This document shows, piece by piece, positions 1-46,098 of a stretch of 46,428 bases of DNA. The notes under the pieces were generated by a model, which saw only the letters and a program-made list of their open reading frames with translations, was not told the DNA's origin and did not search any database. The DNA is from Halorubrum yunnanense (GTDB taxonomy: Archaea; Halobacteriota; Halobacteria; Halobacteriales; Haloferacaceae), in NCBI RefSeq assembly GCF_026586675.1, contig NZ_JAODIX010000008.1, forward strand, positions 9,120 to 55,547, written 5' to 3'. Both the position numbers and the translations under genes were made by a program. Each line of letters opens with the position of its first letter. Within the stretch, counting starts at the first letter, position 1.

Positions 1-215
1 CCCCCCCCCACGAGGCTGGGGAGGTGTGAGGTGCGGCGCTGTCGGTGCGGGTGGGATTCAAAGGGGCAGCCGCGAGCGGTCACAGGCGACGCAAGCACTG
101 GAAGGAGCGAGCAACACGAGCGACTGAAGCGCGCAGCGAGCGTGTGACCGCCTCGCGGCTGGGGCTTTGCAGGCATTCACCGCCGTTCTGCCACCAGCAG
201 CTGCATATAATTGAG
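1..215 (-). repeat. Dispersed structured repeat, copy A (cut by window edge)
   Basis: Read on the minus strand, this copy has a TATA-like box (AATTATATG, 204-212), a GTG at 178-180, the conserved head CAAAGCCCCAG (159-169) and then sequence shared with the copies at 2342-2640, 22464-22820 and 45755-46098. It runs to the conserved CTCCCCAGCCTCG near position 10, where the window ends in a C run. The internal hairpin and tail seen in the other copies lie outside the window. No gene with haloarchaeal composition is seen in 1-273; the short frames here are arginine-rich. Confidence 0.8.
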
Positions 216-2341: not shown

Positions 2342-2640
2342 CGAGTTATAAATCGAAACGCGGTCGGCGCGCGCCTCTGAGCCCCCAACGGGCGCGAAGA
2401 GCGCGTGCGAGGCAGCCCGCGGCGGCGTTTATAAACGCCGCCGCGGCGAGGCTGGGGAGGCGTGAGGCGCTGTGCGGTGCCGTGCGGGTGGGACTCAAAG
2501 AGGCAGTCGCGAGGGCGAAGCACGGCGTAGTAAGCACCGCAGCGAAGGAGCGGTAGCGACTGAGCGAGGAGCGAAACAAGCCGCGCGAGTCCTCGCGGCT
2601 GGGGCGTTGGAGGTGTTTTCAGTCGATTCCCAGTCAGCGA
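2342..2640 (-). repeat. Dispersed structured repeat, copy B
   Basis: Read on the minus strand, the head CAACGCCCCAG lies at 2599-2609, followed by sequence shared with the other copies down to CTCCCCAGCCTCG (about 2447-2460). The internal hairpin is the perfect palindrome at 2417-2446. The terminal hairpin is 2367-2374 paired with 2401-2408, and an AT-rich TTATAAAT follows at 2345-2352. The module with the GGGACC/GGTCCC and GCCGGCGC hairpins, present in copies C and D, is missing here. No TATA-like box is seen at the usual distance before the head, so this copy may lack a promoter. Confidence 0.8.
2417..2446. repeat. Perfect 30-bp palindrome centred on TTTATAAA
   Basis: Positions 2417-2446 are identical to their reverse complement: an 11-bp GC-only arm on each side of a central TTTATAAA. 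It occupies the site of the variable hairpin in repeat copy B. The centre resembles an archaeal TATA box readable in both directions, and the arms would form a very stable hairpin in RNA or a cruciform in DNA. Confidence 0.9.
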
Positions 2641-21738: not shown

Positions 21739-22194
21739 GTGGCGTTCACCGATAAGATCTACGTGAAGAACCACCGGCAGCTCGCCTCCCAGCTGGAGAC
21801 GAACATTCCGAAGGGCGCGTTCGCCGGCGCCACCCTCGACATGCTGTTCACCGGCGACGGGCTCTCGAAGCTTGACTCCACGACTCAAGACCGGATTCTG
21901 GACTTCGCCGAGGATTTCCTCGACTGCGACTGTCAGGCGAACCCCTACTGCGGCTGTCCCGAGGAGAAGTTCATGCGGTACGTGTTGGAGCTCCGCGCCG
22001 AGGGGCTCGGCCCGCAGGCGATCGTGGACGTGATGACTGACGACTACATGGTGTACGCGTACACCGGCGACGTGCTCTCGTTCCTCGACGACTCGGTGCG
22101 GAACCTGGAGGCCGTCGAGACCCTCGCGGACGTCGAGGGCGACGAGGAGATGTCCGATCGAGCGCGGCGAGCGAAGCGCGAGTTATCGGGATAA
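21739..22194 (+). CDS. DUF5814-type haloarchaeal protein
   Basis: 151 residues. It begins VAFTDKIYVKNHRQLASQLE, and has FLDCDCQANPYCGCPEEKF (about 54-72), a five-Cys cluster suited to metal binding. VMTDDYMVYAYTGDVLSFLD (about 97-116) and an acidic, helical C-terminus follow. I recognise it as the conserved haloarchaeal DUF5814 family; its function is unknown to me. The start is a GTG, supported by a TATA-like CTTTTACTG (about 21703-21711) 25-30 nt upstream. The tandem repeat region follows after about 100 bp. Confidence 0.75.
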   Translation: MAFTDKIYVKNHRQLASQLETNIPKGAFAGATLDMLFTGDGLSKLDSTTQDRILDFAEDFLDCDCQANPYCGCPEEKFMRYVLELRAEGLGPQAIVDVMTDDYMVYAYTGDVLSFLDDSVRNLEAVETLADVEGDEEMSDRARRAKRELSG

Positions 22195-22292
22195 GACGCG
22201 TATCGGTACCGCGGTTCTGTTGATGTCGTCGGTGGTTTATAACCCGTTACCGGCGACTGCGCGACGGACGGCTACGGAATCCCAGTTGTCCA

Positions 22293-22520
22293 CATATAAC
22301 TGAATGATTGTGGATCGGTGGAGAACGCTCACAAAGCCCCAGTCGCTTGTTTATAACTGAATGACTGTGGATCGGTGGAGAACGCTCACAAAGCCCCAGT
22401 CGCTTGTTTATAACTGAATGACTGTGGATCGGTGGAGAACGCTCACAAAGCCCCAGCCGCTCGTTTATAACTGAATGACTGTGGATCGGTGGAGAACGCT
22501 CACAAAGCCCCAGCCGCGAG
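22293..22520 (+). repeat. 57-bp tandem repeat: four copies of the dispersed-repeat head
   Basis: Four head-to-tail units start at 22293, 22350, 22407 and 22464, each 57 bp. Each unit holds a TATA-like TTTATAAC (TATATAAC-like in the first), GATCGGTGGAGAACGCTCAC and AAAGCCCCAG. The last unit runs straight into repeat copy C. Units 2-4 differ only at a few positions near their ends. There are no unique spacers, so this is not CRISPR. The region 22195-22900 holds no gene with haloarchaeal coding character. Confidence 0.95.
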
Positions 22521-22820
22521 GACTCGCGCGACTCGCTGCGCGCTTCAGTCGCTCACTCCGTTCGCTCCTTCCAGTGCTTGCGTCGTCGTGCTTCGCCCTC
22601 GCGACTGCCCCTTTGAGTCCCACCCAACCGCACAGCACCGCGCCTCACGCCTCCCCAGCCTCGTCGGCCGCCCTCCGCGTCGCTTCGAGCGGCCGACTCC
22701 AGCGAGGGACCGAAGGTCCCTCTGGCAGCCGGCGCGACGCGCCGGCGACCTCGCGCGTGCTGCTCGCGGCCGGCAGGCCGCTCGCAGGCACGCGCCACCG
22801 CGATTATTTATAAATATCGG
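22464..22820 (+). repeat. Dispersed structured repeat, copy C
   Basis: Head CAAAGCCCCAG at 22502-22512, then the shared body to CTCCCCAGCCTCG (22651-22663). Internal hairpin: TCGGCCGC (22664-22671) with GCGGCCGA (22689-22696). Then GGGACC/GGTCCC (22706-22720) and GCCGGCGCG/CGCGCCGGC (22728-22746). Terminal hairpin: GCGCGTGC (22753-22760) with GCACGCGC (22788-22795), containing GCGGCC/GGCCGC (22766-22781). The copy ends at TTTATAAA (22807-22814). A TATA-like TTTATAAC (22464-22471) precedes the head. Confidence 0.85.
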
Positions 22821-22900
22821 AGCCGGTTTCCAGCCGATCGTCTTCCCGGCCGCGTAGAGCCTCCGAACGGTCTAAGTGCGCTCGCGCCTGAACTCGGGTA

Positions 22901-23800
22901 ATGAGTCTTCGGCCCGCGTGGCTGACCTTCAGGCGATACGCGGCGGCGACGACGGGGATGACGCTGACGCTGTTCGCGATCGGCGTCTACACCGCGGCGA
23001 CCGGCTCCGGGCTGGCGTGCGAGGCCCAGTGGCCGCTCTGCTCCGACCAGCTCATCCCCGCGATGACGATCAACCCCGACTTCATCGAGTGGTTCCACCG
23101 CGCGTGGGCGATGGTCACCGGCTTCCTCATCATCGGGACCGCGGGCTGGACGTGGCTCGGGAGCTTCGACCGGCGGACCCGACTCGCGGCGACGCTCGCG
23201 GTCGTCATCCTCCCGCTGCAGATCACCGTCGGCGCGATCACCGTCACGGTCGGCGGGCTCGTCCCCGGCGGCTACGCCGTCTCGACGCACGCGGCCCACC
23301 TCGTCGTCGCGCTGACCATCTTCACGCTGCTGGGGCTGGCGACCGTCTGGGGCGGCGGGGGCGGCCGGGGATCGGCGCGGCTCCTCCGAGTCGCGGCGAC
23401 CGTCGGCGTCGCCGGGATCGCCGCCAGCGCGGTCTTCTCGCGGGCGGTCCCGTTCGTCACGTACTCGCCGGGCGCGCAGGCCGGCTTCTACGCCGCCGGG
23501 CTCGCGGGCCACCTCGGGCTCGTCGCGACGGTCGCGTTCGCCACCGAAGCGGTCCGGTCGGGCTACCCCGGCGTGAGCGCCTCAGCGGCCGGCACGGTCC
23601 GCTTCCTCGCCGCGGGCGCGATGGCCGCGCTCGTCGCGACGCTCCTGCTGGGCCGGGATCTGGTGTTGTACACCCCGGGTTGGGAGCGGCTCAACCTCGC
23701 CGCGCTGAGTGTCGCCGTCGCGCTCGCTGCGGCCGCGGCGTGGGTCGCGCGCGACGGCGACGACGCTGGAGCCGCGACGGAGCCGATCGGCGGCGACTGA
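22901..23800 (+). CDS. ctaA: Heme A synthase (CtaA/COX15)
   Basis: A 299-residue membrane enzyme that oxidises heme O to heme A for aa3-type terminal oxidases. It shows about eight transmembrane helices. Conserved His are in EWFHRAWAMVTG (about 63-74) and VSTHAAHLVVA (about 127-137). The outer-loop Cys pair GLACEAQWPLCSDQL (about 37-51) resembles the redox-active pair of bacterial CtaA. The length fits the family. TATA-like TCTAAGT (22872-22878) lies 25-29 nt upstream of the ATG, so a leaderless mRNA is likely. No other cytochrome oxidase gene is in the window. Confidence 0.88.
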   Translation: MSLRPAWLTFRRYAAATTGMTLTLFAIGVYTAATGSGLACEAQWPLCSDQLIPAMTINPDFIEWFHRAWAMVTGFLIIGTAGWTWLGSFDRRTRLAATLAVVILPLQITVGAITVTVGGLVPGGYAVSTHAAHLVVALTIFTLLGLATVWGGGGGRGSARLLRVAATVGVAGIAASAVFSRAVPFVTYSPGAQAGFYAAGLAGHLGLVATVAFATEAVRSGYPGVSASAAGTVRFLAAGAMAALVATLLLGRDLVLYTPGWERLNLAALSVAVALAAAAAWVARDGDDAGAATEPIGGD

Positions 23801-45754: not shown

Positions 45755-46098
45755 CTTTTAAATGGATGCTACGGGCGCTGCGGTGAAGACCTCCAAAGCC
45801 CCAGCCGCGAGGACTCGCGCGACTCGCTGCGCGCTTCAGTCGTTCGCTACGCTCACTCCCTCCAGTGCTTACGTCGTCGTGCTTCGTCCTCGCGGCTGCC
45901 CCTTTGAATCCCGCCCCGCACGGCACCGCACCTCACGCCTCCCCAGCCTCGCGGTTCGCGCTCTCCGAGCGCTCACCGCGTCCAGCGAGGGACCTCCGGT
46001 CCCTCTGGCAGCCGGCGCGTAGCGCCGGCGACCTCGCGCGTGCTCCTCACCCCCTTCGGGCGGTCGGAGGCACGCGCCACCGCAGTTCGTTCATAAAC
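45755..46098 (+). repeat. Dispersed structured repeat, copy D
   Basis: TATA-like CTTTTAAAT (45755-45763), GTG at 45783-45785, head CAAAGCCCCAG (45794-45804), then the shared body to CCAGCCTCG (45943-45951). Internal hairpin: CGGT/ACCG (45952-45955 with 45975-45978) plus GCGCT/AGCGC (45958-45962 with 45968-45972). Then GGGACC/GGTCCC (45989-46003), GCCGGCGC/GCGCCGGC (46011-46029) and the terminal stem GCGCGTGC/GCACGCGC (46036-46077). It ends near TTCATAAAC. No gene-like frame is seen from 45709 to the window end. Confidence 0.85.

Follow-up and report, generated by a model that had tools for sequence, protein, structure and literature searches.

The analysis of the 57-bp tandem repeats present at positions 22286–22513 of the window (the whole 46,428-nt stretch of Halorubrum yunnanense DNA that was analysed) suggests that they form a variable-number array of the 3′-border module of a structured, intergenic element dispersed throughout the haloarchaea. 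The array grew by local duplication, and the module would have a role at the element's border; we assign this interpretation a probability of about 0.7. The module lies 3′ of a fold adopted by the minus strand, and so would not act as a promoter into the element. Units are added separately in each copy by tandem duplication, through slippage or unequal exchange, at a fixed length of 57 bp, and the oldest and most weathered unit is the outermost. The source genome is a Halorubrum-type draft of 3.17 Mb in 116 contigs.

Tandem Repeats Finder placed the array at 22295–22517, with 3.9 copies of period 57 and 98% matches; its score of 418 made it the strongest array in the window by a wide margin. 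When unit limits were set by cutting at the ...AAAGCCCCAG boundary, head-to-tail units spanning 22286–22513 were obtained, so the tandem array proposed in the sequence-only reading is real. The spacing was 57 bp throughout, and a repeat search also detected a degraded fifth copy upstream, placing the first copy at 22238–22346 (71%). The earlier count of four 57-bp units was therefore correct as far as it went, but overlooked a weathered fifth unit at 22229–22285. Similarly, a TATA-like box had been assigned to each unit; TTTATAAC is indeed found at 22350, 22407 and 22464, but the sequence at 22293 is CATATAAC. A chance origin of the array is excluded by its period and by the dozens of copies in the same genome that have units at 57-bp spacing. 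As had been noticed, only the last unit (22457–22513) continues into the body of the element, and the unit boundary falls where the core begins; read on the minus strand, the last 11 nt of this unit (22503–22513) make up the 3′ side of the fold's basal helix. The locus is organised as follows:

21739–22194, plus strand: flanking gene of the DUF5814 family (Pfam PF19131, E 2e-62; synteny), which is conserved and anchors the orthologous site on its left.
22229–22285, no strand: degenerate fifth unit, the oldest, with the TTTATAAC box and the ...TCCCAG end still in the 57-bp register.
22286–22342, no strand: array unit 1, with AT box CATATAAC at 22293–22300; 86% identity to unit 2.
22343–22399, no strand: array unit 2, with AT box TTTATAAC at 22350–22357; 100% identity to unit 3.
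22400–22456, no strand: array unit 3, with the AT box at 22407–22414; 96% identity to unit 4.
22457–22513, no strand: array unit 4, which leads directly into the element.
22503–22624, minus strand: core hairpin (RNAalifold; class-wide alignment; match to covariance model R1, 137.3 bits).
22625–22801, minus strand: second domain of the element, with several GC hairpins; the 5′ part of the folded strand.
22804–22816, no strand: right-end AT box TTATTTATAAATA; most copies have a comparable box no more than about 20 nt from their right end.
22901–23800, plus strand: COX15/CtaA-like flanking gene (Pfam PF02628, E 2e-11; synteny), the conserved right anchor.

A coding repeat was discarded, since 29 of 99 distinct units contained a stop in the best frame and stops were not excluded in any frame. 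A CRISPR array was also rejected, as the units abut without spacers.

The body of the element aligned to dozens of other sites in the genome (at least 66 pieces, with 40 scored of 254 candidates). A covariance model built on the core hairpin (R1), whose E-values are rough, recognised about 115 copies of the element here and 137 in a complete, single-contig relative. The element was detected in 51 of 52 Halorubrum genomes and in 183 of the 242 Halobacteria genomes sampled, belonging to 60 of 74 genera; copy numbers from the large genome searches are to be read as 'at least'. In a phylum-wide sample searched with R1, the positive genomes (30 of 30) all came from one order, and no match was found in any sampled genome outside it. 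Most relatives carry a simpler form of the element. Outside Halorubrum, core hairpins often occurred as BIME-like inverted pairs 25–30 bp apart (L254, L252, L268, L273, L270 and L269; about 1350–1810); several such pairs were seen in non-Halorubrum genomes, whereas Halorubrum copies are not usually arranged in this way. Portions of the body, from AAAGCCCCAG onward, are present on plasmids of other haloarchaeal genera, while phage records and a pattern scan of viral contigs did not reveal the element. Rfam contained no matching family at the gathering score or at relaxed thresholds up to E 10; the sole relaxed matches were two sub-threshold CRISPR-repeat hits, located elsewhere in the element than the units. 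No description of the element was found in the open-access literature searched.

Nearly all of 39 copies checked were intergenic. Crude gene calls showed a mild excess of copies between convergent gene 3′ ends (15 of 37) and no fixed orientation relative to the neighbouring genes; copies occur in either orientation, and this speaks against any fixed role as a driver of adjacent genes. Regular spacing of copies around the chromosome was considered and rejected, as the distribution did not differ from random (CV 1.03 versus 0.99). The window itself holds three further core-hairpin copies, at 45794–45915 (minus strand), 2487–2609 (plus strand) and 50–169 (plus strand), each with one recognised array unit of varying quality.

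The core fold was deduced by RNAalifold from an alignment of 58 copies, 49 of them from this genome (alignment A1), which gave 32 pairs, 22 of them with compensatory double changes. A second alignment, of 102 class-wide matches (A2), had been fitted to the model, which makes A1 the fairer of the two. In A2, 98.4% of the cells pair, 29 of the 32 pairs show double changes, and covariation was 0.586, compared with 0.174 ± 0.007 in shuffled alignments (0 of 500) and no more than 0.082 with the partner slid. The basal helix (CAAAG....AGCCG / CGGCT....CTTTG) contains a 4 × 4 internal loop that is C-rich on the plus strand and G-rich on the minus strand. Above it there is a covarying stem, followed by a rod in which 2-bp helices alternate with tandem G·A pairs.

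Three independent signs assign the conserved fold to the minus strand. Read on this strand, G·U pairs exceeded C·A pairs by 57 to 8 in A1 and by 89 to 17 in A2; the minus strand was the more stable one in 57 of 58 single copies; and two internal loops were GA/GA in 54 of 58 copies, positions that would be T·C on the plus strand. The array is thus located 3′ of the folded strand and is not its promoter-proximal head. The sequence-only reading had described the repeats as a promoter plus the head of the element, a description that is not supported for a body folded in this way, while its broader proposal, the tandem amplification of a module bordering a dispersed element, is supported. The fold could act as RNA, as we infer, or as single-stranded DNA, in which G·T and tandem G·A also pair.

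The minus strand of the whole element folds at −195.3 kcal/mol (z −4.6). The second domain (22625–22801) contains a conserved GGCTGGGGAGG-GTG on the minus strand, and its right boundary, CGCGCCACCGC, is common to most copies. The AT box that follows (22804–22816) is a candidate promoter of the minus-strand fold. At the right end of copies (for example L303, L003 and L027), a second AT box (ATTTAAATA) was often seen about 33 bp past the TTTATAA box. On the folded strand of Halorubrum copies, GGAGGTG-like runs in the 3′ flank of the core hairpin and in the second domain resemble Shine-Dalgarno sequences.

Array units were counted with a weight matrix seeded on units with an exact AAAGCCCCAG, which favours that block. 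Among 55 distinct copies in this genome, five had no unit, 15 had one, 18 had two, eight had three, eight had four and one had five; units were therefore present in 50 copies, 35 of which had two or more. Junctions between units measured exactly 57 bp in 60 of 62 cases. The identity between adjacent units fell into two groups, 0.93–1.00 (14 pairs) and 0.51–0.77 (21 pairs), while the proximal units of different copies shared a mean identity of 0.67, with a maximum of 0.91. Near-identical units are found only within a copy, so they were made there after the copy had reached its place; this comparison indicates that arrays grow by local tandem duplication. The most decayed unit was usually the outermost. 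An array of six units, five of them identical, was found in the complete relative, bringing the overall range to 0–6 units per copy. The same arrays were present in other Halorubrum species, some with 54- or 51-bp units and a weaker AT box, so that neither the length nor the box is absolute. Complete genome G043 provides both kinds: at L319 and L336, arrays of 54-bp and 51-bp units whose AT box is weaker occupy this same border. No array units were seen in the outgroup copies inspected, and the arrays appear to be a Halorubrum feature.

Old units were matched block by block against the proximal unit of their own copy (21–23 unit pairs). Retention was 0.76 ± 0.06 for the AT box and 0.82 ± 0.04 for the AAAGCCCCAG / CAAAGCCCCAG block, compared with 0.41–0.70 for the other blocks. 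In old units, the TATA-like box noted in the sequence-only reading is thus retained better than the blocks next to it (0.76 versus 0.41–0.50). The better retention of these blocks suggests constraint, and the slower decay of the AT box and AAAGCCCCAG indicates that the units are probably not purely neutral.

The interval between the DUF5814 gene and ctaA is conserved in named Halorubrum species, which allowed the same locus to be compared. The present genome has four units at this site; Halorubrum sp. Boch-26, Hrr. lipolyticum and sp. Hd13 have two, and Hrr. saccharovorum, sp. CSM-61, Hrr. salsamenti, sp. CBA1125, Hrr. halophilum and Hrr. xinjiangense have one. A single weak unit was found in Hrr. 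amylolyticum and none was recognised in sp. SD626R. In Hrr. salinum, Hrr. laminariae, Hrr. ezzemoulense and others, the interval is only 69–142 bp long and lacks the element. Array length, which the earlier reading had proposed to compare, therefore differs at one locus (four, two or one units, or empty) and between copies. At the hisD locus of the present genome, an element with three identical units lies right after a stop codon. Genomes G009 and G003 have an empty site there, with GGAGTGA joined directly to GTCGGAACG, the ends of the insert not being sharp enough to define a target-site duplication, and genome G036 has the element with units. In genome G045 (L299), the units and the second domain are kept while the core hairpin is cleanly gone between CAAAGCCCCA and CCCCGCAC. 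In these comparisons, the element comes and goes between species and its array length changes. The possibility that the TATA boxes are a target-site duplication was rejected because empty orthologous sites lack the box; dating an insertion by the flank of copy L013 was abandoned, as this flank is itself repetitive.

Four other explanations for the units were weighed. Purely neutral slippage, with units that have no role and duplicate because CCAGCCGC recurs at the junction, is a possible though less probable account; recent duplications are indeed local to each copy and the unit number varies freely from 0 to 6, but the spacing is exactly 57 bp even between units with 51–77% identity, and decay is slower in the AT box and AAAGCCCCAG. 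The units might instead be terminal iterons, i.e. transposase or replication-protein sites, of a mobile hairpin ssDNA element of the REP/IS200-IS605 style. The high copy number, the intergenic location, the empty sites in relatives, the mismatched hairpin and the close inverted pairs in other genera are consistent with this, but no terminal inverted repeat was identified, arrays are absent from the copies inspected outside Halorubrum, and no two copies share more than 0.91 identity in their proximal units, which argues against a recent burst; we consider this explanation unlikely.

The two remaining explanations see the AT boxes as promoter signals. The idea that each unit is a plus-strand promoter directing transcription into the element, with stacked start sites, finds some backing in the TATA-like box of each unit, which is better kept in old units than the adjacent blocks, and in the 56–58 bp intergenic repeats of halovirus HF2, which are working promoters in haloarchaea (PMC8707807). 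It is nevertheless rather improbable: the conserved fold is on the opposite strand, so the transcript would be its antisense, and the boxes of the 54- and 51-bp units are weak. In addition, the haloarchaeal promoter consensus includes a CGAAA BRE and a −10 WW (PMC4983044), and inspection of the units by eye against this consensus revealed neither of them at the right distance, in either direction. A home-made promoter matrix derived from the genome's own genes had just 23 sites and was discarded as too poor. Outward promoters or enhancers acting from the minus strand on the left gene seem improbable; TTATAA is the same on both strands, and the similar right-end box could drive the minus-strand fold, but in 25 of 38 copies examined, that of the window included, the 3′ end of the left gene faces the array, leaving nothing there to drive.

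REP sequences, the repetitive extragenic palindromes of bacteria, are short hairpins (about 20–40 nt) with a conserved GTAG-type tetranucleotide. The element resembles REP/BIME sequences in having more than 100 extragenic copies (115 in this genome, 137 in the complete relative), in forming imperfect palindromic hairpins and, to some extent, in the close inverted pairs of other genera. It differs from them in its far longer hairpin, its rod of tandem G·A pairs and its arrays of border modules; the core is about 105–125 nt long and no GTAG-type tetranucleotide was seen in it, so it is not a short REP. Another parallel is BrickBuilt, a MITE of Porphyromonas gingivalis with an internal minisatellite, which is likewise dispersed, intergenic and non-coding, with a head-to-tail repeat and promoter-capable ends (PMC4596501). 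BrickBuilt is bacterial and has a 23-bp unit and terminal inverted repeats (PMC4596501), whereas the element described here has a 57-bp unit at one border, a strongly covarying fold and 115 or more copies. A repeat search of positions 22000–22900 found no MITE-type terminal inverted repeats, only internal inverted pairs. The PATEs and SMRs of Haloquadratum walsbyi are also short, transposase-free, dispersed haloarchaeal repeats; in the parts of that report consulted, PATEs are linked to IS605-type ends with short palindromes near their termini, and none is described with tandem unit arrays or with the fold of the present element (PMC3119063). The class I repeats of HF2, a Halorubrum virus, are similar to the units in length (56–58 bp), intergenic location and AT box; they are dispersed single promoters with a BRE and mapped starts (PMC8707807) and, unlike the units, are not in tandem and lack a hairpin element.

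The interpretation of the array as a 3′-border module relies on the content of the units. Besides its AT box, each one supplies a further CGGCTGGGGCTTTG, which on the minus strand is the 3′ side of the element's basal helix. A unit opens on this strand with CTGGGGCTTTG, preceded by CGG, and thus repeats that side of the helix in full; its AT box follows about 40 nt further on. The array would most likely be the 3′ border of the element, the extra units providing spare closing strands and AT boxes; as to the function we infer for the module, these boxes may serve in transcription end, TBP binding or protein binding. A more speculative possibility, which we put forward tentatively, is that the body represents a family of structured non-coding RNAs, unrecognised until now and found across the haloarchaea, that would be produced from some 100 or more loci per Halorubrum genome. 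The array would then be a 3′ module that can be tuned, each unit offering an alternative strand to close the basal helix (CGGCUGGGGCUUUG) together with an AT-rich end signal.

A fold that is kept by compensatory changes in about 100 diverged copies per genome, is found in most haloarchaeal genera and has no Rfam entry points to a common and unstudied RNA or ssDNA element. The border arrays, which vary in length from copy to copy, would provide a handle on the transcription, ends and spread of the copies, and are candidate markers for strain typing.
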